From IMG/VR virus record IMGVR_UViG_3300023174_000087, positions 1 to 64,000 of that record: DNA of 64,000 nt; one strand, written 5' to 3'. Within the stretch, counting starts at the first letter, position 1. The number at the start of each line of letters is the position of its first letter. The notes beneath the pieces are model-generated. The model had not been told where the DNA came from, made no database searches, and worked only from the letters and a program-made list of their open reading frames with translations. This DNA is from a virus. Made by a program: the position numbers and the translations under genes. Below are positions 14,049 through 41,796 of this stretch, piece after piece.

Positions 14049-14809
14049 TCTATCTCCTCCTTATATGTTACAGAGTACTCTCCTGTAAATATCTCTGCAT
14101 ATGAAATTATATCAGACATATAGCGCTTTACTGTATTTACCCCGACTTTATCAGACATATATTTTTTACCATCAGACAAAGGCCTGTGGATAAGTCCTTC
14201 AGAGACAAATGCATCATTTAAGGTTTGGATATATCTTTCTTTGCCAAACCTCTTAGATGCAAACTCTTGTCTCATATACTTTTCACGAAAATTATTATCT
14301 GCTTGTTGGGTTTCATCTGTATTACAGATAACATATGAAACAGCATCATGACTCATCCTATTAGACCAATTTCGCATATTGTCTCCGTACTTCTCCATGT
14401 TTCTTAGAGTTGAATCGGAGAAAGACATGCGTATTTTGTCATCAGGGGATGTTGTCACCTCTGTTGCAAACGAAATTAAAAACGCGGTTGCGTATGGAAA
14501 TTTTTCATAATATTTGTCAACCTTGTAGTGTTGATTTGGATTAAATGACTCTACTGAGTTTGCGTCGTCTAAAAGCCTCATATGATTTCCAATTGAAACA
14601 TAATCTGAATGATTCATATCTACGTCGACGAAAAGACATTCTTTTGGATCTATCCCATCGGCGAGACATAAAAGATTTTTATCGTATGTGCCGACGACTT
14701 CAGAACCGTTAAACCTATTTATCAATTGCGCCGACATAAAACCATCCATGTCTGGAGAAATTATTAATTTATTTGAAAAACTTAAAGTATCCAATATGTC
14801 CGTTTTCAT
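14039..14809 (-). CDS. putative DHH-like phosphoesterase
   Basis: This 256-residue protein has an N-terminal IISPDMDGFMSAQL motif (D20, D22), then LFVDVDMNHSDY (D62, D64, H67), and HDAVSYV further on. These resemble the D-x-D and D-H-x motifs of DHH-family phosphoesterases (RecJ/NrnA-like), in a divergent form. If correct it would cleave phosphodiesters, for example nano-RNAs. AAGGGGAATTT gives the start. The TATTAT box for this gene overlaps the divergent TATAAT box of the holin-like gene. Confidence 0.45.
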   Translation of the reverse strand: MKTDILDTLSFSNKLIISPDMDGFMSAQLINRFNGSEVVGTYDKNLLCLADGIDPKECLFVDVDMNHSDYVSIGNHMRLLDDANSVESFNPNQHYKVDKYYEKFPYATAFLISFATEVTTSPDDKIRMSFSDSTLRNMEKYGDNMRNWSNRMSHDAVSYVICNTDETQQADNNFREKYMRQEFASKRFGKERYIQTLNDAFVSEGLIHRPLSDGKKYMSDKVGVNTVKRYMSDIISYAEIFTGEYSVTYKEEIEWR

Positions 14810-14826
14810 TTTTAATAAATTCCCCT

Positions 14827-14832
14827 TATAAT
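14827..14832 (+). promoter_or_regulatory. -10 box shared by divergent genes
   Basis: TATAAT lies 9 nt before the ATG at 14842. The overlapping TTATAATAATACA also reads as TATTAT on the minus strand, upstream of the 14809 start, so one short AT segment serves both directions. Confidence 0.5.
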
Positions 14833-14841
14833 AATACAGTT

Positions 14842-15117
14842 ATGAATATCCAAGATTGGGCTTCCCTTATTGTAGCGATACTTACAATTGTATCATCTAT
14901 AGCCTTTTCAATCAAGTGGCTTGTAAAACATTATTTGAGCGAACTTAAAACAAATGGTGGCTCAAGTGTTAAAGATCAAATTAATAGATTAGAGGCTCGC
15001 CTTAATGAGGCTGATATAAAAAGAAGCCAAATGAAAGAAGATCACAAAGTTATGAAAGCCAAACTTGATCATATGTATGATATTCTTTTAGATTATATAT
15101 CTAAAAGTGGAAAATGA
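14842..15117 (+). CDS. holin-like membrane protein
   Basis: This 91-residue protein has one N-terminal transmembrane helix (about residues 7-30, WASLIVAILTIVSSIAF), a basic stretch, and a C-terminal coiled coil (about 45-85). One-helix holins and phage membrane proteins of this size have this form. I chose the ATG at 14842 because it sits 9 nt after TATAAT; an in-frame ATG at 14773 would read through the promoter. It may permit the transglycosylase at 20941-21504 to reach the wall (inference). Confidence 0.55.
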   Translation: MNIQDWASLIVAILTIVSSIAFSIKWLVKHYLSELKTNGGSSVKDQINRLEARLNEADIKRSQMKEDHKVMKAKLDHMYDILLDYISKSGK

Positions 15118-15332
15118 TAGACTTCTGGTCTTTGATATATATAATATATTTAATATAAAAACCTTTTAAAGATAGTTCTTTTTTCTTATATATATTTAAG
15201 TATACACTATCCCGTTCCTGACATTCTATTACTTAATAGACAAAATGGACATTTACAATTATAACAATTTGATAACTTTTATAAAATCCTTTATACTCTT
15301 GATTAATTATTTAGTGGTATAATCTTTATACT
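15118..15332. other. AT-rich gap with promoter elements
   Basis: No gene is seen. On the minus strand AATGTCAG (15218-15225) is followed by TGTATAC with 10-13 nt spacing, a possible variant of the TGTCRG promoter. AATGGACATTT (about 15243) matches the AATGTCC motif. TATAAT (15318-15323) serves the 15333 gene. Confidence 0.4.
15318..15323 (+). promoter_or_regulatory. extended -10 box, near-leaderless
   Basis: TGGTATAAT, with the -10 hexamer ending 9 nt before the ATG at 15333. Confidence 0.55.
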
Positions 15333-25839: not shown

Positions 25840-26910
25840 ATGGCAGTTAGACAACAGCAACGCAGAGGTACCGCAGCACAGTGGACATCAGCAAACCCAA
25901 TTCTTTCAGCAGCCGAAATTGGTTATGAAACAGATACAAATAAATTTAAGATTGGTGATGGAACCAATCGTTGGTCAACTCTAAGTTATTTTGTTGATCT
26001 TGATACAATGATTGCTGGTGCACCAGGACTTCTAAACTCTCTTGACGAAATTGCAGCCGCAATTAATGATGATCCAGCATTCTTTACAACAATTGCATCA
26101 TCACTTTCTTCAAAAGCACCACTTGCTTCCCCAACTTTTACAGGTACCGTTTCAGGTATTACAAAGTCAATGGTTGGACTAGGATCAGTAGATAATACTG
26201 CAGATTCAGCAAAGCCAGTATCTACAGCACAGGCAACAGCAATTGCAACAGCAAAGTCAGAAGCAGTATCAACTGCCTCATCTGATGCAACTACAAAGGC
26301 TAATAATGCTAAATCAGGTGCAGAGACAACAGCAGCAACTGCTCTTGCTTCACACGAATCAGACACAACAAATATTCACGGCATTGCAGACACATCTGCT
26401 TTGGCTACAAAAACATATGCAGACAATGCAGCATCTACTGCAGTTGCAGCCGTTGTAAATTCAGCGCCAGAAGCGCTTAATACACTAAAAGAACTTGCAG
26501 ATGCACTGACTGCAGACGAATCAACAGCAGCATCACTTGCTACTCTTGTTGGTACAAAAGCACCTTCTGCAAATCCAACCTTTACTGGAACAGTACAAGG
26601 TATCACAAAATCTATGGTAGGTCTAGGAAATGTTGATAACACATCTGATACCAATAAGCCAATATCATCAGCAACTCAGACAGCGCTTGATGCCAAACTT
26701 GCTTCTGCAACTGCAGCATCAACATACGAAACAATTTCAAATGTAGCACTTAAGGCGCCATTGGCATCTCCAGCACTTACTGGTACACCAACATCTCCAA
26801 CTGCATCAGTTGGAACTAATACAACACAAGTTGCCACAACAGCATTTGTTAAAGCAGCAATTGAGAATATTGCTTCACTAGACTTAGTACTTGATGGCGG
26901 TGGAGTATAA
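25840..26910 (+). CDS. tail fibre with Mtd-N-like module
   Basis: This 356-residue protein has an N-terminal module QQQRRGTAAQWTSANPILSA... ending GDGTNRWSTLSYF (about residues 4-50), the widespread fibre motif resembling the Bordetella phage Mtd N-terminal domain. After it come two blocks of the form TFTGTVxGITKSMVGLGxVDNT. The C-terminus ends LDLVLDGGGV. The ribosome binding site is AAGGAGG. Confidence 0.8.
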   Translation: MAVRQQQRRGTAAQWTSANPILSAAEIGYETDTNKFKIGDGTNRWSTLSYFVDLDTMIAGAPGLLNSLDEIAAAINDDPAFFTTIASSLSSKAPLASPTFTGTVSGITKSMVGLGSVDNTADSAKPVSTAQATAIATAKSEAVSTASSDATTKANNAKSGAETTAATALASHESDTTNIHGIADTSALATKTYADNAASTAVAAVVNSAPEALNTLKELADALTADESTAASLATLVGTKAPSANPTFTGTVQGITKSMVGLGNVDNTSDTNKPISSATQTALDAKLASATAASTYETISNVALKAPLASPALTGTPTSPTASVGTNTTQVATTAFVKAAIENIASLDLVLDGGGV

Positions 26911-26971: not shown

Positions 26972-28963
26972 ATGACAACAAGAATGCAACAGCGTAGAGG
27001 AACCTCTGCACAATGGACTTCAGCAGATCCAATTTTAGCAAATGGTGAAATTGGAGTAGAAACAGACACTAACCAGTTTAAACTTGGAGATGGTGTTAAC
27101 GTATGGTCAGATCTCTCCTACTTTAAAAATCTTGATGACCTTGCTGGTTCTCTTGATGACTACGTATTATTAAGCACAAAGGGGCAAGCAAATGGAGTTG
27201 CAACTCTAGACTCTAATGCTCAAATTCCGCTTTCACAATTAGCAAATCTTATATCTTCAGCACCATTAGCACTAGACACATTAAACGAACTTGCAGCAGC
27301 ACTGGGAAATGATGCAAATTTTGCTACAACAATTTTAGCATCAGTTGCAACAAAACTTCCTACTAGTACATTTACAACACATGCAGCGACCACAACAAAT
27401 GTTCATGGAATTGCAGATACTTCAGTTCTAGCAACTGCTACAACGGTAGCAACCGCTAAAGCAGAAGCAATTTCAGCAGCAGCAACTTATACATCAACTG
27501 CAAAATCAGAAGCAATTTCTGCAGCAGCAACCGATGCAACAAGCAAAGCATCAAGTGCAGCAGCAGAAGCAGCAACTGATGCAACAACTAAAGCAGCAAC
27601 TGCAAAGTCAGAAGCAATAGCAGCAGCCGCTTCTGCAGCAGATACAAAAGTTTCAACACATAACACAGCAACAACAAACGTACATGGCATTACAGACACA
27701 GCAGCACTAGCGACTAAAACATATGCTGACTCAGCAGTATCAACTGCAGTTTCAGGACTTACAAAGTCTTCTGTAGGACTTTCAAACGTAGATAATACCT
27801 CTGACGCCAACAAGCCAGTTTCTACTGCAACTACAACAGCACTTGCACTTAAGGCTAATCTTGCCAGTCCAACTTTCACAGGAACAGTTTCTGGAATTAC
27901 AGCATCAATGGTAGGCCTTGGAAATGTCAATAACACAGCAGACACTGCAAAGCCTGTTTCAACAGCACAGCAAACAGCACTTGATGCTAAGTTGGCACTT
28001 TCTGGCGGAACAATGACAGGAGCACTTACACTATCAGCAGATCCTACATCAGCACTTCATGCGGTTACTAAACAGTATGCAGACGGACTTGCTGCTGGAA
28101 TTAACTTTCACCAAGCAGTAGTTGCAGCATCAGCAGGCAACCTTGCTGGTGTTTACAATAATGGAACAAATGGTCTTGGTGCAACAATTACAGCATCAGC
28201 AAATGGTGCTATTGGAACAATTGATGGTGCAACAGTTTCTGTTGGTTCTAGAATTCTTCTTCGTGCACAAACAGATGCAACTCAAAACGGTATTTACACA
28301 GTAACTGACCTTGGAAGCGGATCTACAAAGTGGGTTGTAACTCGTGCAACAGATGCAGATAATAATCCAGCAGGTGAACTTGCAACTGGTGACTTCTGTT
28401 TCGTAACAGCAGGCTCAACAAATGCTGCTAAGGGTTATATCCTAAGCACAACAGGAACAATTACAATTGGAACTACAAATGTTAACTACACACAGTTTAA
28501 TGCTTCTGAAGCCGTAACTGCTGGTACAAATATTACAAAGTCTGGTTCAACAATTTCTGTTGCAGATGCACCAACATTTGCTGGGCTTGTAACAGCCTCA
28601 GCAGCAGGTGTTGCATTCTCAGACGGTACACAAACAAAGGAAGGCGTAGTCTCACGTACACCAATTATTCAAAAGACAGCAGCCTACACACTATCAGCAC
28701 TTACAGAAAGAGACTCATTGATTGAAGTATCTTCTGCATCAGCAGTTACCTTAACAATCCCAACAAATGCAACACTAGCCTTGCCAGTAGGAACATCTAT
28801 AGATATTCTTCAGACTTCTACTGGACAAGTAACAATTGCAGGAGCAGCAGGAGTTACAGTTAACGCTACACCAGGTCTAAAACTACGCACACAGTGGTCT
28901 GGAGCAACTCTTTTTAAGAGAGCAACAGATACTTGGGTAGTTTACGGCGACCTATCAGCATAA
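26972..28963 (+). CDS. long tail fibre with Mtd-N-like module
   Basis: This 663-residue protein has an N-terminal module MQQRRGTSAQWTSADPILAN... (paralogous to 25840), an Ala-rich helical rod (about 155-240), blocks with SVGLSNVDNTSDANKPVS and MVGLGNVNNTADTAKPVS, a middle segment with LTLSADPTSALHAVTKQYAD, and a C-terminal domain shared with the 18067 product. It is probably trimeric and host binding. Confidence 0.85.
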   Translation: MTTRMQQRRGTSAQWTSADPILANGEIGVETDTNQFKLGDGVNVWSDLSYFKNLDDLAGSLDDYVLLSTKGQANGVATLDSNAQIPLSQLANLISSAPLALDTLNELAAALGNDANFATTILASVATKLPTSTFTTHAATTTNVHGIADTSVLATATTVATAKAEAISAAATYTSTAKSEAISAAATDATSKASSAAAEAATDATTKAATAKSEAIAAAASAADTKVSTHNTATTNVHGITDTAALATKTYADSAVSTAVSGLTKSSVGLSNVDNTSDANKPVSTATTTALALKANLASPTFTGTVSGITASMVGLGNVNNTADTAKPVSTAQQTALDAKLALSGGTMTGALTLSADPTSALHAVTKQYADGLAAGINFHQAVVAASAGNLAGVYNNGTNGLGATITASANGAIGTIDGATVSVGSRILLRAQTDATQNGIYTVTDLGSGSTKWVVTRATDADNNPAGELATGDFCFVTAGSTNAAKGYILSTTGTITIGTTNVNYTQFNASEAVTAGTNITKSGSTISVADAPTFAGLVTASAAGVAFSDGTQTKEGVVSRTPIIQKTAAYTLSALTERDSLIEVSSASAVTLTIPTNATLALPVGTSIDILQTSTGQVTIAGAAGVTVNATPGLKLRTQWSGATLFKRATDTWVVYGDLSA

Positions 28964-28993: not shown

Positions 28994-30523
28994 ATGGCAG
29001 TTAATAAGAATATAGGTGGTCGTTCACAGGGAGCAAATGACTTTCTTACACCATATGCACCAACAATTGGAACAGCAACAGATGTAGGAACAGGTCGGGC
29101 ATACAATAATGGTGCTGCTACAGTAACTTTTACTGCTTCTGGTCCTAATGCAGCAACATCTTATACTGTTACATCTTCTCCAGGAGGATTTACTGCGACA
29201 GGTGCTTCATCTCCTTTGACAGTAACTGGTCTTCAATCTAATACAGCATATACATTTACTGTAACAGGAACAAATTCAGCAGGAACTGGAAGTGCATCAA
29301 GTGCATCTAACTCAATAACTGCAACAACTGTTCCTCAAGCACCAACAATTGGAACAGCAACAGATGTAGGAACAGGTCGTGCTTACAACAATGGCGCAGC
29401 AACAGTAGCATTTACTGCAAACGCAACTGGTGGAAAAACAATTTCTAATTTTACAATTACATCTACACCAGGTAATATAAATGCAACAGGATCAAGCAGC
29501 CCAATAACTGTTGAAAGCCAGTTATCAGCAGCAGCATATACTTATGCAGTTAAGGCAACAAATGCTAATGGAGACTCTTTATATTCTTCTGCATCAAACT
29601 CAATAACAACTACAACTGTTCCTAATACTCCTGACGCACCAGTTGCTTCATCACCTTCTGCAGGAACAGACTCTGTTTCATGGTCAGCCCCAGCAAATGG
29701 TGGAAAAGCAATTGATCTTTATTATTGGGCATCAAATGATGGAAAATCAGGAAATACATCATCTACATCAGTTTCAGTTTCACAAGAGCAAGGAACAGCA
29801 CAGACGTATACAGTTTATGCACATAATGCTAATGGAAACTCTGGAACATCAGCAGCATCAAACAACATTACAACAACATTTTCATTTACACCATTTGGTG
29901 CTTTTGGAGCATTCGGAGCATTCGGAGCATTCGGAGCATTTGGTGCTTTTGGAGCATTCGGAGCATTCGGAGCATTCGGAGCATTTGGAGCATTCGGAGC
30001 ATTCGGAGCAGTTTATGGTGGACCAGGATTCTTCTTCCACTGGTCACTTAACATTAATACAGAAGTGTTAATGTCTACTGTTGCAGGAGAACCACAGTCA
30101 TCAAAGCCTGCTGGAGAACTTGCAGTTGGAGACAAACTGGTTGCACTTGATTTGGGTTCAGGAGTTTCAGACTGGACAACTTGGCAGTCATCAACTATTG
30201 ACCTATCACAGGCACCAATTGTTGAAACAACAATTACAAGTATTGACATTGTTCCAGAAGATGAATTTGTTTACATCGATGGAGACTTGTTCTCTAAGTC
30301 ACACTGGATTCTTACTAAAAAAGACGGGATCGTTAAGTTTATAAAGTCTATGGATATAGATACTACATACCAGAGATACTCTCATGCAGACTCTGCTTTT
30401 GTAGACATTGTTTTAGTTGAAGTTGTAGATCTTCAAATGAATAAGGTTTCCATAAACTGTGAACCTTATGACAACTTCTTTACAAAGCAAATGTTAGTAT
30501 TTGACAGACCAGATACAAACTAA
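28994..30523 (+). CDS. adhesin with three Ig/FN3-like domains, (FGA)13 linker and C-terminal Hint-like domain
   Basis: This 509-residue protein has three Ig/FN3-like repeats of about 95 residues (APTIGTATDVGTGRAYNNGA occurs twice), a 39-residue FGA repeat (301-339), a short Gly/Phe/His segment, then a domain of about 155 residues with Hint (intein/hedgehog) features: S351-L-N-I-N-T356-E-V-L, ELAVGDKLVALD, S434-K-S-H437-W, and a final NCEPYDNFFTKQMLVFD. The last block lacks the usual His-Asn. If active it would cleave before S351 and release or crosslink the tip. It may instead be a degenerate anchor. Confidence 0.65.
   Translation: MAVNKNIGGRSQGANDFLTPYAPTIGTATDVGTGRAYNNGAATVTFTASGPNAATSYTVTSSPGGFTATGASSPLTVTGLQSNTAYTFTVTGTNSAGTGSASSASNSITATTVPQAPTIGTATDVGTGRAYNNGAATVAFTANATGGKTISNFTITSTPGNINATGSSSPITVESQLSAAAYTYAVKATNANGDSLYSSASNSITTTTVPNTPDAPVASSPSAGTDSVSWSAPANGGKAIDLYYWASNDGKSGNTSSTSVSVSQEQGTAQTYTVYAHNANGNSGTSAASNNITTTFSFTPFGAFGAFGAFGAFGAFGAFGAFGAFGAFGAFGAFGAFGAVYGGPGFFFHWSLNINTEVLMSTVAGEPQSSKPAGELAVGDKLVALDLGSGVSDWTTWQSSTIDLSQAPIVETTITSIDIVPEDEFVYIDGDLFSKSHWILTKKDGIVKFIKSMDIDTTYQRYSHADSAFVDIVLVEVVDLQMNKVSINCEPYDNFFTKQMLVFDRPDTN
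29894..30010 (+). repeat. 9-bp tandem repeat, 13 units, encoding (FGA)13
   Basis: TTYGGAGCA units (and TTTGGTGCT at units 1 and 6) give 13 Phe-Gly-Ala triplets. The recurrence of the TTTGGTGCT variant after five units suggests a higher-order duplication of about 45 bp. Confidence 0.9.
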
Positions 30524-30545: not shown

Positions 30546-31295
30546 ATGAGCAAAAAAAACAAAGCATCTAAAGTAAAATTTGTTAATACTTTGCCAAAAA
30601 TGGTAGATGTATTTCCTAAACCAGAGCCAGCATCTAAAAATATACCATCTTGGTTTAAAAAGGTTGATAGTTTTCACAATAATGATTCAACCCCAGTAAA
30701 CGGTAATCAAAACATTACTGTTAAAAGATGTGTAGCATTTTTAGATATGTTGTCAAGTGGATACATATTTAAAGCACCTTTTGATATATATGTTGATACA
30801 ACAGAGGGCAAAAAAGTTTTTGAAGTTCCAGCAGCCATGCAAGCCTTAGTTGCTCTCGGCACCAGACAACTTGTAGGAAGTCATGATTTAAATCAAGTTC
30901 CAGGTTATCCGTTCGACACAGATCAATACATAGAATATCTTTTTAGAGTTAATATGATTTGGATAATTCAAACAGAACCTGGATATAGCACTTTATATAT
31001 TCAGCCACAACACCACGAAGTTACTCCATTTTATGCAATTTCTGCAGTAATTGATTCAGATTCTTATCCATCAAATGGTTTGATGTCTTTTTTAGTTAAA
31101 AAAGATTTTAAGGGAATAATTCCAAAAGGTACACCTTTGTTACAAGTAATACCATTTAAAAGAGAAGATTATGAATCAGAGTATGTTGAAACTCAGCAAG
31201 CAGCAGATGTTATTCAAAAGGTAGGATATTTGATTAGAAGTGTTTTTAATTCTGGTTATAAAAAATTTATGTGGTCTAAAAAGTCATACAGGTAA
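30546..31295 (+). CDS. conserved phage protein of unknown function (DUF6065-like)
   Basis: This 249-residue protein has PKMVDVFPKPEPASKNIPSW near residue 20, KRCVAFLDMLSSGYIF, then WIIQTEPGYSTLYIQPQHHE and FKGIIPKGTPLLQVIPFKRE. I recall this layout from a family of unknown function common in cyanophages and marine phages (possibly DUF6065). Its position beside fibre genes fits either a virion or an assembly role. It is followed by a terminator. Confidence 0.6.
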   Translation: MSKKNKASKVKFVNTLPKMVDVFPKPEPASKNIPSWFKKVDSFHNNDSTPVNGNQNITVKRCVAFLDMLSSGYIFKAPFDIYVDTTEGKKVFEVPAAMQALVALGTRQLVGSHDLNQVPGYPFDTDQYIEYLFRVNMIWIIQTEPGYSTLYIQPQHHEVTPFYAISAVIDSDSYPSNGLMSFLVKKDFKGIIPKGTPLLQVIPFKREDYESEYVETQQAADVIQKVGYLIRSVFNSGYKKFMWSKKSYR

Positions 31296-31399: not shown

Positions 31400-33433
31400 A
31401 TGTCAGATTTTTTTAGTTTTAAACTTCCAGAGGACTTTGTAGAAAAGTACAAGAACCAAGAAAGCCCATTTGGGTTTAAGGATGCAGCAGAAAATTCACT
31501 TGGAGAGATTACTTTTATTCGTACGTATTCTCGCATGAAAGAAGATGGAACTAAGGAAAGATGGCATGAAGTTTGTCGTCGTGTAATCGAGGGTATGTAT
31601 TCAGTTCAAAAGAATCATGCTAAAGAAAACCGTTTGCCATGGAATGACTACAAGGCTCAGAAGTCTGCACAAGAAGCATTCCAAAGAATGTTTGAATTGA
31701 AGTGGACACCACCAGGACGAGGCATGTGGGCATTTGGAACTCCTATGACTATGGAGAAGAAGAACTCAGCAGCACTACAAAACTGTGCAATGGTATCTAC
31801 AAAGGACCTTGACAAGAATGATCCAGGAGCGTTGTTTGCTTGGGTTATGGATGCCCTTATGCTTGGCATTGGTGTAGGGTTTGATACAGTGGGACAGGAT
31901 AAGCATTTCTCAATCTATGCCCCAACAGAACCTGAACAGGTGTTCGAAATCCCAGACACTCGTGAAGGATGGGTAGAGTCAGTCAGACTTCTAATAAACT
32001 CATACCTAAGAGCAAACCAAAGTATTCAAAAGTTTAACTATAACTTGATCAGACCACTTGGATCCCCAATTAAGGGCTTTGGAGGCGTTGCATCAGGACC
32101 TGCACCCCTTATCAAGTTGCACAACCAGATAGACCGTGTAATAGGCTCCAGAGGGGGAGAAACACTAGATTCTCGTGCCATCGTAGACCTTGTAAACCTC
32201 ATTGGTACTTGCGTTGTATCAGGTAATGTTCGTAGATCAGCAACACTTGCTTTGGGAAATGCAGGTGATGAAACATTTATGAATCTAAAGAATGCAGAAC
32301 TATTCCCAGAGCGTAACTCGTTTGATCCAGAGAATCCAGGTTGGGCCTGGATGTCTAACAATTCTATTTCAGCAGAAGTAGGAACAAAGTACGAAGACTA
32401 TGTAGATTTAATTACAGAAAACGGAGAACCAGGTTTTATCTGGCTTGATGTTGCTCGTAATTATGGACGACTAAAGGATGCGCCAGACGGTAAAGATTAT
32501 CGTGTGATGGGATTTAACCCATGTGCGGAGCAGCCATTGGAGTCATACGAATTATGTACACTTGTAGAAGTGCACTTGAATCGTCATGAATCTAAGGAGG
32601 ACTTCCTGCGTACTCTGAAGTTTGCATACCTTTATGGAAAGACTGTAACACTTGTTCCAACACACTGGCCACAAACAAACGGCATCATGCAACGTAATCG
32701 TCGTATTGGTACATCTCTTACTGGTATTGCATCATTTGCAGATCAAAAGGGTTTACCAGTTGTTCGTGAGTGGATGGACGAAGGCTATAATAAAATTCGT
32801 CATTATGACCATCAGTATTCAGAATGGCTGTGTGTTCGTGAATCAATCCGTGTAACTACAGTAAAACCATCTGGCTCGGTTTCAATTCTTTCTGGTGCAA
32901 CTCCTGGAGTTCACTGGGGTCCTGGAGGAAACTTCTTCCTTCGTGCAGTTCGATTTGGAACTACAGATCCAATGATTCATTTGTTCAAAGCAGCAGGGTA
33001 TACAATCGAAGATGACGTAGTATCAGCAAATACATCGGTAGTTTATTTCCCAATTAAATCAGGTCATCCAAGATCTGAGAAAGATGTAACATTATTTGAA
33101 AAGATTGCTCTTGCTGCAACTGCTCAAAAATATTGGTCTGATAATGGAGTTTCTGTTACACTTTCATTTGACAAAGAAACAGAATCTAAGCACATCGTTC
33201 CAGCATTAAATATGTATGAGGGACAGTTGAAAGCAGTATCATTTCTTCCAATGGGAAACACTGTTTATCCACAGCAGCCATACACACAAATTACTGAAGA
33301 ACAGTATGAGTCGTATATTGGTAAATTAAAGCATATTGATTTTTCTGCAATTTACGACGGTGTAGATAATCTTGAGGCTCAAGGTGAAGCATACTGTACA
33401 ACAGATTATTGTGAAATTAAAATAAACAAGTAG
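31400..33433 (+). CDS. nrdJ: adenosylcobalamin-dependent (class II) ribonucleoside-triphosphate reductase
   Basis: This 677-residue protein reduces ribonucleotides to deoxyribonucleotides with vitamin B12. Matching the monomeric RTPR type: NC129A at the first redox Cys, the NPC375AE377QPL active-site loop (radical Cys with Asn and Glu), C386, and a C-terminal C666-x4-C671 redox pair. It is slightly shorter than the Lactobacillus enzyme (739). The ribosome binding site is GAAAGGAC. The codons are more GC-ending than those of neighbouring fibre genes, as expected for acquired or highly expressed genes. It supplies dNTPs during replication. Confidence 0.93.
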   Translation: MSDFFSFKLPEDFVEKYKNQESPFGFKDAAENSLGEITFIRTYSRMKEDGTKERWHEVCRRVIEGMYSVQKNHAKENRLPWNDYKAQKSAQEAFQRMFELKWTPPGRGMWAFGTPMTMEKKNSAALQNCAMVSTKDLDKNDPGALFAWVMDALMLGIGVGFDTVGQDKHFSIYAPTEPEQVFEIPDTREGWVESVRLLINSYLRANQSIQKFNYNLIRPLGSPIKGFGGVASGPAPLIKLHNQIDRVIGSRGGETLDSRAIVDLVNLIGTCVVSGNVRRSATLALGNAGDETFMNLKNAELFPERNSFDPENPGWAWMSNNSISAEVGTKYEDYVDLITENGEPGFIWLDVARNYGRLKDAPDGKDYRVMGFNPCAEQPLESYELCTLVEVHLNRHESKEDFLRTLKFAYLYGKTVTLVPTHWPQTNGIMQRNRRIGTSLTGIASFADQKGLPVVREWMDEGYNKIRHYDHQYSEWLCVRESIRVTTVKPSGSVSILSGATPGVHWGPGGNFFLRAVRFGTTDPMIHLFKAAGYTIEDDVVSANTSVVYFPIKSGHPRSEKDVTLFEKIALAATAQKYWSDNGVSVTLSFDKETESKHIVPALNMYEGQLKAVSFLPMGNTVYPQQPYTQITEEQYESYIGKLKHIDFSAIYDGVDNLEAQGEAYCTTDYCEIKINK

Positions 33434-37205: not shown

Positions 37206-37610
37206 ATGAATCAAGAAAATCCAAACAAAAAGCGTAAAGCATTGCCCAAGATGAAGGGGCAAGTAGGCGAATCTCGTGCAAGAATTATTGAAAAACATTA
37301 TGATTGGGGTTTATACGTTTATAAAAAAGCCAATGGAAGATGGTTTACAGACGGAACAGGATCTGTTTTAAACATTCCATCAATGAAAGGCGATATCTCC
37401 AAGATTTCTGAATTAAAGATTGCAGCAAAACATTATGGAGATGAAGGAGACGGAACATGCGTATTTGTTCCAGGCCTAACAAGAATTTCAGAAGAAGAGT
37501 ACTCTGAGCAAAAGCAAAGAATGGCAGAAGGACTCATTCCTTCTATGAATGACTTAGGTGCTGTACAAGCAGCCAAAGACACTATTGCAAAGTATGGAAG
37601 TGATGATTAA
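37206..37610 (+). CDS. conserved protein upstream of portal
   Basis: This 134-residue basic protein, MNQENPNKKRKALPKMKGQV..., has a beta-rich middle (YDWGLYVYKKANGRWFTDGT). It abuts the portal gene (TAATG). Short proteins here in other siphophages are often head or terminase-associated, but no family is recognised. I chose the ATG at 37206, matching the leaderless -10 box. Confidence 0.6.
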   Translation: MNQENPNKKRKALPKMKGQVGESRARIIEKHYDWGLYVYKKANGRWFTDGTGSVLNIPSMKGDISKISELKIAAKHYGDEGDGTCVFVPGLTRISEEEYSEQKQRMAEGLIPSMNDLGAVQAAKDTIAKYGSDD

Positions 37611-39226
37611 TGTCAGAAGAATACGAATACAAGATTCCAGCAAGAATTGATAACCTTCCAGAAATAGATGATACTTTTACAAAACAAGATTCATTTAATA
37701 AAAACTGGGACGAACTAAAAAATTTTCAAGGACTAGATAATAACTTTAAACGCCGTGCAAGCAGGGTTTCAAAAGTAGATGCTTCTCAAGGTTATATTGA
37801 TAGTTCTAGAGCAGAAAGCACTGGTATTGGTGGAGCAAAGTCAAAGGAGATTAATCCTGGACTTATTTATAGAAATGGATACGGTTTATTTGATGTAATC
37901 ACTCCGCCTTGGAACCTATATGAATTAGCAAACTATTACGATACATCTTTTGCTAATCATGCCGCTATTGATGCAAAAGTTGAAAACATTGTTGGACTAG
38001 GCTATGATTTTGAAGTATCAGCAAGAACAATGCTTAAGTTAGAATCTTCTACAGATTCAGATGCCGTTGGTCGTGCTAGAAAAAGAATTGAGCGAGCAAA
38101 GATTGAGGTTCGTGATTGGCTTGAATCTCTTAATGATGAAGACTCTTTTACTGCCTCAATGGAAAAAGTATTTACAGATCTTCAAGCAACAGGAAATGGT
38201 TATCTTGAAATTGGTAGAACTGTAAAAGGAGAGATTGGATATGTCGGTCATATTCCATCAACAACCATAAGAGTTCGTAGATTAAGAGATGGATTCGTTC
38301 AGTTAATTGGAAATAAGGTTGTTTACTTCCGTAATTTTGGAGCAACAAATCCAAATCCACTTGGAACAGATCCAAGACCAAATGAAATAATTCATTTTAA
38401 ATCTTATTCACCATTAAATACTTTTTACGGTGTTCCAGATATTCTTTCAGCAATAAATTCTCTTTATGGAGATTCACTTGCTTCACAATACAACATTGAT
38501 TTCTTTAGTAACAAGGCTGTTCCAAGATATGTTGTAACTCTTAAGGGTGCTAAGTTATCCACAGAAGCAGAAGATAAAATGTTTAGATTTTTACAAACTG
38601 GACTAAAAGGACAAAATCACAGGACACTTTATATTCCACTTCCAGGAGATTCAGATACCAACAAGGTTGAGTTTAAAATGGAGCCAATTGAAAATGGTGT
38701 TCAAGAAGGATCATTTAAAGAGTATCGCAAACAAAACCGTGATGACATTTTAGTTGCACATCAGGTACCACTATCAAAACTTGGAGGCGGAGACTCTTCT
38801 GCAGTGGCAGCAGCATTAGCACAAGACAGAACATTTAAAGAGCAGGTTTCAAGACCAGCACAGGATAAACTTAATAAGATGATTAACAAGATTATTCGTG
38901 AAAAAACAGATATTCTTGATTTTAAGTTTAATGAGTTAACTCTTACAGATGAGATTGCTCAATCACAAATTCTTGAGAGATATATTAAATCACAGATCAT
39001 GCTTCCAAATGAAGCAAGAACTATACTTGGTATGCCTCAAAGAGATGGTGGAGATGAGCCATTTTCTCCTAAGCCAGAACAAATAAATAACCCCGCAGAT
39101 CGTGCACGAGATGCACAAAGAACTAATAATCAGTCTGATGGCTCAGCAACAATTTCTGGCAGAAATCCAAAAGGCGAAGGAAGAAAATTTGATGAAATTG
39201 ATATTCTTTCCGAAATGTCCGAATAG
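37610..39226 (+). CDS. portal protein
   Basis: This 538-residue protein is typical of HK97/PBSX-type portals in length and motifs: HAAIDAKVENIVGLGYDF, GNGYLEIGRT, EIIHFKSYSPLNTFYGVPDI and DFFSNKAVPRYVVTLKG. Twelve copies should form the DNA channel at the capsid vertex and dock the neck. The C-terminal 60 residues are charged and disordered. It is followed by the protease gene. Confidence 0.92.
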   Translation: MSEEYEYKIPARIDNLPEIDDTFTKQDSFNKNWDELKNFQGLDNNFKRRASRVSKVDASQGYIDSSRAESTGIGGAKSKEINPGLIYRNGYGLFDVITPPWNLYELANYYDTSFANHAAIDAKVENIVGLGYDFEVSARTMLKLESSTDSDAVGRARKRIERAKIEVRDWLESLNDEDSFTASMEKVFTDLQATGNGYLEIGRTVKGEIGYVGHIPSTTIRVRRLRDGFVQLIGNKVVYFRNFGATNPNPLGTDPRPNEIIHFKSYSPLNTFYGVPDILSAINSLYGDSLASQYNIDFFSNKAVPRYVVTLKGAKLSTEAEDKMFRFLQTGLKGQNHRTLYIPLPGDSDTNKVEFKMEPIENGVQEGSFKEYRKQNRDDILVAHQVPLSKLGGGDSSAVAAALAQDRTFKEQVSRPAQDKLNKMINKIIREKTDILDFKFNELTLTDEIAQSQILERYIKSQIMLPNEARTILGMPQRDGGDEPFSPKPEQINNPADRARDAQRTNNQSDGSATISGRNPKGEGRKFDEIDILSEMSE

Positions 39227-39249
39227 TGATACTTTGATAAAAAAGGGCT

Positions 39250-39255
39250 TATAAT
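39250..39255 (+). promoter_or_regulatory. -10 box upstream of the protease
   Basis: TATAAT ends 10 nt before the ATG at 39266. A second TATAAT overlaps at 39257-39262. Confidence 0.5.
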
Positions 39256-39265
39256 ATATAATACG

Positions 39266-40615
39266 ATGACTATATCAAAAGCCCATTGGAATTCAGAGGG
39301 TGACAACCTTCGTTTTTCCATGCCATTCAGTAAAGTTGATAAAGAGAGGCGTACAGTCTCTGGTTTTGCATCCCTAGATAATCTTGACAAGCAAGATGAC
39401 ATTGTAACAGCAGAAGCATCAATGGATGCATTTGCAAAATTTCGTGGGAATATTAGAGAAATGCACCAACCATTAGCAGTAGGCAAAATGGTTTCATTTA
39501 AAGAAGACAAGTATTTTGATCCAGAAACAAAGAAATTTTATAATGGTGTTTTTGTTTCTGCATATGTTTCAAAGGGTGCACAAGATACTTGGGAAAAGGT
39601 TCTTGATGGAACATTAACTGGTTTTTCTATAGGCGGTAGAATGAACAAGTGGGACGACGCTTATGATGAGAAAGCAGATAAGACAATTAGAGTTATTAAG
39701 CAATATGATCTTGTTGAGTTGAGTCTTGTTGATTCCCCAGCAAATCAATTTGCAAATATTGTTTCAGTAGAGAAGGTAGACGGTGTTGATATGATTAAGG
39801 GCGATGAAACAGTTGTTGAAAATGTTTTTTGGGACAAGCAATCTGGTATTGTAACCGTATCAGAAAATGAATCAGAACTTAGCCCTGTTTCTGGTGAACC
39901 AATGCAAAACATAGGTTTCGTTGAAAAAACGGATAATGAAAAAACAGATATGATAAAATTCTTAGTCGATAGTGCTAAAGGCATTAATACTTCTAAGATT
40001 AACAAGGAGGAAAACCTTATGGCAAAAGCAACAAAAAATACAGTAGAAGAAATCGTTGAGAAATCTGATATTGTAGTTGAAATATCAGAGGTCGCTCCAG
40101 AGGCAGATGCAAAAGCAGATGTTGTAGTACCAGCAGATGAAGCAGAGACTGATGCAGAAAAGGCTATGAAAAAGCCTGCTACTGATGAATCTGAAACACC
40201 AGCAATGGATGCAGCAGAAACTCCAGCAGATGAAGAGGCAGAGGCTAAGAAGCCAATGGCCCCTAAGTCAGATGAGGTAGTTGCAGAAGCAGTTACAGAA
40301 ACAAATGACGGTCTTGAAAAAGCCTTTAGCGATCTAGTAGAAGTTGTTAAATCACTTCAATCAGAAGTAGAACTTTTAAAGTCTACTAAGGTTGATGTTG
40401 AAACAGCAAAACAATCATTTGAAGCAGTTGCAAAAGATATTGCATCAGCAACAAGTGTATTTAATGAATTTGGTAAGCGTGTGGAACTTGTAGAGCAAGA
40501 CACCGCTTTCCGAAAGTCTGGCGATCTCGGCGAGATAGTACAGAATCAGCCTGAAATGGTTGAAAAATCCCTATGGGGCGGTAGTTTCCTCAAAACAGCC
40601 GATCTATTAAATTAG
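39266..40615 (+). CDS. prohead protease fused to scaffold
   Basis: This 449-residue protein has an N-terminal HK97-type prohead protease (about residues 1-175) with H67 (IREMHQPLAVGK), S121 (GTLTGFSIGG) and then VELSLVDSPANQFANI, the usual His/Ser catalytic pair. From about residue 250 follows an Ala/Glu-rich coiled region like a scaffold. A strong internal ribosome binding site at 40004-40010 and ATG at 40019 give a separate scaffold product. It shapes and matures the procapsid. Confidence 0.9.
   Translation: MTISKAHWNSEGDNLRFSMPFSKVDKERRTVSGFASLDNLDKQDDIVTAEASMDAFAKFRGNIREMHQPLAVGKMVSFKEDKYFDPETKKFYNGVFVSAYVSKGAQDTWEKVLDGTLTGFSIGGRMNKWDDAYDEKADKTIRVIKQYDLVELSLVDSPANQFANIVSVEKVDGVDMIKGDETVVENVFWDKQSGIVTVSENESELSPVSGEPMQNIGFVEKTDNEKTDMIKFLVDSAKGINTSKINKEENLMAKATKNTVEEIVEKSDIVVEISEVAPEADAKADVVVPADEAETDAEKAMKKPATDESETPAMDAAETPADEEAEAKKPMAPKSDEVVAEAVTETNDGLEKAFSDLVEVVKSLQSEVELLKSTKVDVETAKQSFEAVAKDIASATSVFNEFGKRVELVEQDTAFRKSGDLGEIVQNQPEMVEKSLWGGSFLKTADLLN
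40019..40615 (+). CDS. nested capsid scaffold protein (internal start)
   Basis: This 198-residue product is in frame with the protease gene (codon 252) and preceded by AAGGAGG with 8 nt spacing, stronger than most starts here. The Ala/Glu/Lys-rich sequence with a coiled coil (SDLVEVVKSLQSEVELLKST) fits a scaffold, in the style of lambda Nu3 within C. Confidence 0.7.
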   Translation: MAKATKNTVEEIVEKSDIVVEISEVAPEADAKADVVVPADEAETDAEKAMKKPATDESETPAMDAAETPADEEAEAKKPMAPKSDEVVAEAVTETNDGLEKAFSDLVEVVKSLQSEVELLKSTKVDVETAKQSFEAVAKDIASATSVFNEFGKRVELVEQDTAFRKSGDLGEIVQNQPEMVEKSLWGGSFLKTADLLN

Positions 40616-40638
40616 AAAAAATCACAGGAGGTGACAAT

Positions 40639-41796
40639 ATGTCGGAACAAAATATAGAAAAAAACCAGCCAGGTGCTGCAGGTGGAGAACACATTGGTGG
40701 AAATATTCCAGGACTCTATCAGGGTCAGGGAGCATTTGCATCAGGTAATGAATCTCATCCATACACACCAGGTAACTACACAACTGGTGGAGTTCTAGGG
40801 AATATCCCAGAATCTACACTTGGTTCAGTAAGTGGTCCAAACGCAGTAAATCCTTCAGGTGAGGCTGGATCAGGTATCCTACGCCCAGAGCAAGCACGTC
40901 GTTTTATTGACTACGTGTGGGATGCTACCATTCTCGCCCAAGATGGCCGTCGCGTTACAATGAGAGCCAACACAATGGAACTCGAAAAGGTAAACGTCGG
41001 AGAGCGTGTAATCCGTTCTGCTACACAAGCACTCGGAGAGTACACAAACGCAGGAGCAACTTTCTCAAAGGTTGAATTGACTACAAAGAAGATTCGTCTT
41101 GACTGGGAAGTAACTTCAGAAGCACTAGAAGATAACATCGAAGGTGCAGCACTTGAAGATCACATCGTTCGTCTTATGACAAACGCATTTGGTAATGACA
41201 TCGAAGACCTTGCTATTAATGGTACAGGTTCAGGTGATGCATTTACATCAATCATGAACGGTTTCGTAAATCGTGTCAAGACTGGTGGAGACGCTCACGA
41301 AGCAGTCGTTACAGTTGCTAACGGAGGATGGACTCCAGAAGTTATGCAGAACATCATCCTTGCAATGCCACGTAAGTACCGTGCACTTAAGAACAATCTT
41401 AAGTTCTACGCAGGTACAGATGTATTCCAAGGTATCGTAAAGAATAACGGTACACTTGCTGATGCAATTGCAGAAGCATTTGGTTCACATGCAGGTGGTG
41501 CTGGTACTCCAGCAATGCGCCAATCATACTTAGATGGTAATGCACAGACATTCGGACAAGCACGTACAACTCGTGTTCTCGGAATTGACGTACAAGAAGT
41601 TCCTTACTACCCTGCAGGATATGTCGATTTGACATTCCCACAGAACCGTGTATGGGGCTTCCAGCGTGACATCACTGTTAACCGTGAATACAAGCCAAAG
41701 AAGGACACTGTAGAATATACAGTCTTCGTTCGCTTCGGTATTCAATGGGAAGAACAAGATGCAATCGCTTGGGCAGACGCTGCAGCAGATGCATAA
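40639..41796 (+). CDS. major capsid protein (HK97 fold)
   Basis: This 385-residue protein has a Gly-rich N-terminal arm (about 80 residues), then ARRFIDYVWDATILAQDGRR, VTSEALEDNIEGAALEDHIV and a C-terminal FVRFGIQWEEQDAIAWADAA, characteristic of HK97-fold capsids. AGGAGGTGAC gives a very strong start. Codon choice (CGT, GGT, GAC, ATC) differs from the surrounding AT-ending codons, as expected for the most abundant virion protein. A terminator follows. Confidence 0.92.
   Translation: MSEQNIEKNQPGAAGGEHIGGNIPGLYQGQGAFASGNESHPYTPGNYTTGGVLGNIPESTLGSVSGPNAVNPSGEAGSGILRPEQARRFIDYVWDATILAQDGRRVTMRANTMELEKVNVGERVIRSATQALGEYTNAGATFSKVELTTKKIRLDWEVTSEALEDNIEGAALEDHIVRLMTNAFGNDIEDLAINGTGSGDAFTSIMNGFVNRVKTGGDAHEAVVTVANGGWTPEVMQNIILAMPRKYRALKNNLKFYAGTDVFQGIVKNNGTLADAIAEAFGSHAGGAGTPAMRQSYLDGNAQTFGQARTTRVLGIDVQEVPYYPAGYVDLTFPQNRVWGFQRDITVNREYKPKKDTVEYTVFVRFGIQWEEQDAIAWADAAADA

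Follow-up and report, generated by a model that had tools for sequence, protein, structure and literature searches.

A conserved Hint domain with Ser at position 1 ends an adhesin-like phage protein and may process it without splicing

The gene at positions 28994..30523 (+ strand) of the window, the 64,000-nucleotide stretch of DNA analyzed here, taken from a 115,201-base IMG/VR record, raises the question of whether an adhesin-like phage protein ends in a genuine Hint domain and, if so, what this domain does to the protein that carries it. Known Hint domains comprise splicing elements, the processing domains of hedgehog proteins and bacterial BIL domains.

The gene starts with ATG and encodes a product of 509 aa, whose architecture recurs in relatives. 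Behind a short N-terminal tail there are about three FN3/Ig-like domains (residues 24-300, positions 29063..29893). Three such domains had been named in a preliminary description of the locus, and Pfam fn3 indeed matched here with an E value of 3.8e-12 and in up to three stretches. They are followed by a repeat linker (residues 301-339, positions 29894..30010); the 39 residues of Phe-Gly-Ala described before were counted as exactly thirteen FGA triplets, a unit that varies among relatives. The stretch VYGGPGFFFHW (residues 340-350, positions 30011..30043), which is unconserved among relatives, leads over to the Hint domain (residues 351-504, positions 30044..30505), assigned by AlphaFold2, Foldseek and hhalign. 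The blocks on which its intein-like character had been based, S351-L-N-I-N-T356, ELAVGDKLVALD, S-K-S-H437 and NCEPYDNFFTKQMLVFD, were all found where they had been placed.

All features of the domain lie on the + strand. Ser351 (30044..30046), the candidate nucleophile, corresponds to intein position 1 and aligned with Cys1 of Hint domains from jumbo phages, and Thr356 (30059..30061) is position 6 of block A. The block B sequence S434-K-S-H437 (30293..30304), which aligned with FTHEH of the jumbo phages, corresponds to the segment from Thr B:7 to His B:10. Block F comprises S486-I-N-C489-E-P-Y-D493-N-F-F-T497 (30449..30484), of which I, C, E, P, D, F495 and T497 are invariant among relatives. 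Asp504 (30503..30505) occupies the terminal intein position G:7 and is followed by a tail of only five residues, RPDTN (30506..30520), whose first residue, Arg at +1, is not a nucleophile. According to the alignment the window domain carries Ser1, Thr6, Ser B:7, His B:10, Ser F:4 and Asp F:13, and on its C side Phe G:6, Asp G:7 and Arg +1.

The single sequence of the window domain gave no match in an hmmscan against Pfam and NCBIfam and none by tblastn against annotated phages, while phmmer against the PDB disclosed only a chance match, a phage head protein. Among the PHROGs, it matched only the C-terminal part of phrog_38766, a 'virion structural protein', with an E value of 2.6e-6. An alignment of 63 domains was built from its IMG/VR relatives. 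Scanned singly, 22 of these 63 members matched Pfam Intein_splicing (best E value 8.2e-6) and 11 matched Hint_2. The family profile placed the gp41-1 intein and a bacterial intein-like domain on top of the PDB sequences, weakly, with E values of 0.013-0.021. By hhalign, the family matched the Hint domains of jumbo phages that begin with Cys1 and end with HN (probability 99.3, E value 1.5e-20), Ser351 being paired with Cys1, His437 with the block B His and Asp504 with the terminal Asn. The profile of these jumbo-phage domains in turn found as its best sequence match the solved BIL domain 2lwy (HMMER, E value 3.2e-11) over nearly its whole length, reaching the final HN of 2lwy.

The Hint fold proposed in the preliminary description was borne out by comparison of an AlphaFold2 model with Hint structures. 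The model, based on the 63-domain alignment, reached a mean pLDDT of 88.5 and a pTM of 0.84, and all 50 matches listed by Foldseek against the PDB were inteins, BIL domains or hedgehog. The best match among those listed was BIL2 of Tetrahymena (6y75, E value 2.6e-6). Target-normalised TM scores were 0.80 for the A-type BIL domain 2lwy of C. thermocellum, 0.77 for gp41-1 and 0.66 for hedgehog (1at0), and Npu DnaE was also listed. The domain unites what characterizes the Hint superfamily: the Hint beta-fold, sequence homology by way of relatives, a nucleophile at position 1 and the block B His. Model and sequence comparisons together strongly support that the last approximately 155 residues have the Hint fold and a Hint ancestry.

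To see which residues are retained, three IMG/VR scans were evaluated that yielded up to 201 related stretches per scan, of which no more than 80 from each were used. After de-duplication, 86 distinct domains including that of the window were obtained, 85 of them from IMG/VR contigs, so that the family has at least 86 distinct members; some are only about 40% identical to the window domain. Position 1 is Ser, position 6 Thr and the block B residue His in 86/86 domains. Hence the Ser instead of Cys at position 1, already remarked upon for the window, holds for the entire family. The codons used for it were TCA (56), TCT (20), TCG (4) and TCC (4), i.e. TCN in 84 domains, and AGT in two; the occurrence of both Ser codon sets points to selection on the residue. 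Twelve of 146 well-filled columns (86 rows) are invariant, among them S351, T356, H437 and D493, which correspond to positions 1, 6, B:10 and F:13 of inteins. The chance of finding the three preset positions 1, B:10 and F:13 among the invariant ones is about 4e-4, a rough value as related sequences are not independent. Other positions are less strict. Position 434 (B:7) is Ser in 66, Thr in 15 and Val in five domains, F:4 is Ser, Thr or Ala in place of the usual Asp, and both the residue preceding Ser1 (-1) and the +1 position vary.

The C-terminal end was more complicated than previously assumed. The final His-Asn had been described as missing, which is correct insofar as the window domain ends with Phe-Asp; the Asn column itself is not simply missing but kept as Asp (75 domains), Glu (7) or Asn (4), with no other residue in the 86 domains. 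The penultimate position G:6 is mostly Phe or Tyr and only in 8/86 domains His. In a tree, the Ser1 domains were separated from the Cys1 group with 99% SH-aLRT. The Asn-ended members formed one group within the Ser1 clade, which indicates that the interchange of Asp, Glu and Asn occurred inside this clade. In this Asn-ended subgroup (L126, L118, L117 and L119), linkers of the PVIIA, PVVVN or YDNPP type replace the aromatic ones.

The invariance of some residues has to be seen in light of the scan patterns. Those of the two later scans included CEP[YH]D or HWILTKK, and the invariance of C489-D493 and His437 is therefore partly a matter of ascertainment. Ser351 was absent from every pattern that supplied family rows. 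The patterns of the first scan contained neither S351 nor C489, and still the 10 distinct domains aligned from it had both residues without exception. Cys489 (30458-30460) and Thr497 (30482-30484) are invariant in the Ser1 family, while the Cys1 relatives have Val, Ile or Ala and Val, Ala or Gly, respectively, at these positions. Judged from the alignment, this family-specific invariance is possibly a sign of altered chemistry.

In class 1 inteins, the first step is performed by Cys1 or Ser1 with the aid of Thr B:7, His B:10 and F:4, and the third step by Asn G:7, in place of which Glu, Gln or Asp may occur (PMC4031507, PMC7664689). BIL domains devoid of a +1 nucleophile mainly perform cleavage, and in B-type BIL domains, in which the C-terminal motif is absent, N-side cleavage still takes place (PMC7765530). 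Since the phage family kept the residues for N-side cleavage and mostly lost the penultimate His and the +1 nucleophile, its likeness is to a B-type BIL or hedgehog domain and not to an intein. The pattern of retained and lost residues is consistent with cleavage on the N side without splicing. On balance, sequence and model make it probable that the adhesin carries a Hint domain of the autoprocessing type, in which Ser351 would form an ester that is resolved without splicing and the Hint domain would be a removable cap. After folding, Ser351 would attack the peptide bond between W350 and Ser351 (N-to-O acyl shift), assisted by His437 and Ser434. The product would be an ester joining the adhesin, with its FN3 domains and sticky repeat linker, to the Hint domain. 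As there is neither a +1 nucleophile nor a His at G:6, resolution of the ester should proceed without splicing. Water would free the adhesin, with W350 as its supposed new C-terminus and the linker exposed; alternatively, an amine or hydroxyl of a neighbouring virion protein or of the host envelope would become covalently joined to the chain. Fold, homology, architecture and N-side conservation have been observed; we infer that cleavage takes place, which group resolves the ester and that the domain caps the aggregation-prone linker. Such a cap would take the same position as the Ser-Lys autocleavage domains of tailspikes. The latter (ICA/Peptidase S74) have a fold unrelated to Hint and use Ser-Lys chemistry. 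They are likewise C-terminal self-cleaving fibre domains, an analogy confined to position and possible role (PMC3742443, PMC8326128).

With Ser, Thr or Ala at F:4 instead of Asp and with Ser, Thr or Val at B:7, catalysis could be weak or lost, and the variable residue at -1 likewise speaks against the mechanism. Alternatively, the domain may be a processing-dead Hint domain that serves in assembly or as a structural cap, keeping the end of the linker folded and soluble or pairing with a virion protein. We consider this rather unlikely. The mostly lost penultimate His, the change of Asn to Asp or Glu, the Ser at F:4 and the non-nucleophilic +1 residue agree with it. So do residues such as C489, E490, P491, F495 and T497, which are invariant without belonging to the classical catalytic set and suggest a structural or a new role. 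However, Ser1 has not been replaced by Ala, Gly or any other residue in the 86 sequences, including those most distant from the window. Neither does His B:10 vary, and at the terminal position nothing but D, E or N occurs; these are the very sites at which a dead relic should drift. The invariance could instead have structural reasons, and the invariant Cys489 and Thr497 are not accounted for by the mechanism proposed for Ser351.

Several known systems can be compared with a putative autoprocessing domain of this kind. B-type BIL domains share the Hint fold, the retained N-side motifs and the loss of the C-terminal intein motif, and in the window protein blocks A, B and F are present and His-Asn is absent, too. 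The usual residue at position 1 of B-type BIL domains is Cys. They reside on bacterial proteins, whereas the phage family, with its Ser1, its Asp/Glu end and its putative activity, is found on phage adhesins. The A-type BIL domain 2lwy and Tetrahymena BIL2 6y75 are among the best structural matches, but 2lwy ends with His-Asn and the entry for 6y75 names an N143A variant, while Phe-Asp was found in the window; in the family as a whole, His at G:6 and Asn at G:7 are rare. The hedgehog Hog protein (1at0) also has a C-terminal Hint domain, which was matched structurally and whose reaction goes no further than the first acyl shift (PMC7664689). Hog differs by Cys1 and a sterol-recognition region; the phage domain has Ser1 and is devoid of this region, the protein stopping five residues past the domain.

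If the coupling branch of the favored explanation is taken by itself, ligation of the hedgehog or B-type BIL kind would be the main outcome: a virion or host-envelope nucleophile would attack the Ser351 ester and the adhesin would be anchored covalently. The same residues are kept and lost as in hedgehog Hog and B-type BIL domains, hedgehog structures are among the listed Foldseek matches, and PASTA or FN3 domains together with sticky linkers would put the domain at the surface. Still, we regard ligation as the main outcome as unlikely: a sterol-recognition-like extra region is missing, the domain stopping a few residues past G:7, no acceptor is known, and a Ser ester is less reactive than a thioester. 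It is quite doubtful, moreover, whether in these probably actinobacterial phages transfer of the Ser1-Hint ester glues the fibre or the host covalently, with Cys489 and Thr497 joining in an altered chemistry.

The closest described relatives are the Hint domains of jumbo phages. Carriers are Erwinia phages of the Alexandravirus type, Dickeya phage vB_DsoM_AD1, Yersinia phage fHe-Yen9-02 and phage NCTB; the smaller Alcaligenes phage Afa-NA1 also has a C-terminal Hint domain of the Cys1 type. Like the window domain, they are located at the C-terminus of a tail or virion protein and possess an EPYD-like block F and a short tail past the terminal residue. They form a separate clade with features of their own, namely Cys1, TxxH in block B and a His-Asn end, and several have collagen repeats upstream, while others reside on large tail or virion proteins. 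The D493 equivalent is Asp in 5/6 of these Cys1/HN relatives and the terminal Asn is present in all. Deposited labels of Cys1 relatives read 'virion structural protein', 'putative tail protein' and 'contains intein domain'. In phage NCTB, BN7874_135 (L088, positions 14699-15160) is a 153-residue 'intein domain protein' that consists of little besides the Hint-like domain, ends with LVHNKVD and stands free adjoining tail genes.

The architecture of the relatives was also evaluated. In the members read, the Hint domain is C-terminal with only few residues beyond it. Among 77 complete relatives, the upstream domains were fn3 in 47, PASTA in 17 and collagen in four, and 12/13 invariant columns of the full-length proteins fell in the Hint domain. 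The N-terminal half offered no conserved stretches on which a scan pattern could be built. Between members, the linker unit is wholly different (FGA, FPP/FFPP, HYAGF/FxHY, FTPF, SPVG, PTPT, PVIIA, YDNPP). The repeat linkers are mostly aromatic-rich and nearly uncharged, the last 70 residues containing a median of 33% F/W/Y/H and 1% D/E/K/R. Two such genes were present on 2/11 contigs checked, and the window's own record has a single copy. Judged by these alignments, it is the conserved Hint domain that defines these phage surface proteins as a widespread family.

The C-terminus of a tail fibre is often its receptor-binding part, and the domain might be such a tip whose likeness to Hint is coincidental. 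This is very improbable, as the Hint domain is the most conserved part while the rest varies, the opposite of what a tip would show, and Hint homology was found by sequence, too, not by fold alone. Being the only well-conserved part, it fits better a generic processing module than a host-specific tip. An ordinary splicing intein, to which the fold and profile matches to inteins would apply, can practically be dismissed by the architecture already, since the domain ends varied proteins instead of being inserted in a conserved one, the C-extein would comprise merely five residues, +1 is Arg and G:6 lacks His. Compared with class 1 inteins, the terminal residue belongs to the allowed set, but an insertion between two exteins and a Cys, Ser or Thr at +1 are lacking. 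The WCT motif of class 3 inteins with Cys at F:4 is not present either, F:4 being Ser, Thr or Ala; Cys489 was rejected as a class 3 nucleophile because it lies at F:7 in an ungapped alignment of block F.

Genes for the portal, the head maturation protease and the major capsid protein are located at 37610-41796. The capsid protein has its closest counterparts, at 40% identity, in Streptomyces phages of about 128 kb, from which an actinobacterial host can reasonably be assumed. Relatives bearing PASTA domains would fit a peptidoglycan surface. A scan of genome contigs for cellular or prophage copies gave 66 pattern matches and no relatives, so a bacterial home or host link was not found there. 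Just upstream of the Hint adhesin gene are two tail-fibre-like genes (25840-26910 and 26972-28963, + strand), whose products share an Mtd_N (major tropism determinant) N-terminus and have repeat-rich bodies. Downstream, 30546-31295 (+) encodes a 249-aa protein of phrog_7084 (unknown) with relatives in the haloarchaeal tailed viruses HF1/HF2. Its relatives lie on the same strand and at most 3 kb downstream of the Hint-adhesin gene in 106/106 loci having both. As a partner of the Hint domain it was rejected: its AlphaFold2 model (pLDDT 90) showed a weak but consistent likeness to dUTPase/dCTP deaminase (best E value 0.007), which makes a gene of nucleotide metabolism more likely. Embedded within the structural gene cluster is also 31400-33433 (+), whose product by eye (motifs NCAMVST and NPCAEQPL) resembles a ribonucleotide reductase large chain.

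The preliminary description had considered a self-processing adhesin novel in phage tails. This can be maintained in part only, as Hint or intein annotations have been deposited for tail or virion proteins of phage NCTB, jumbo phages of the Alexandravirus type and uncultured Caudovirales phage entries. The jumbo-phage domains checked carry Cys1 and His-Asn, and the family with Ser1, an Asp/Glu end and exchanged repeat linkers appears to be undescribed so far. Hint domains as processing modules of phage adhesins were not found in the literature searched, most subscription papers lying outside the search. Dozens of related phages have the same Hint end on differing adhesins, which, as far as sequence and model go, suggests that they trim or couple their own adhesins. 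The change in chemistry is consistent across the phage family, with Ser1, an Asp/Glu end and a new invariant Cys, while the linkers are freely exchanged. If the domain is active, it would provide maturation or covalent attachment of fibres independent of host proteases and of the Ser-Lys chaperones of tailspikes, and protein engineering would gain a set of Ser1 mini-domains, each about 155 residues long.
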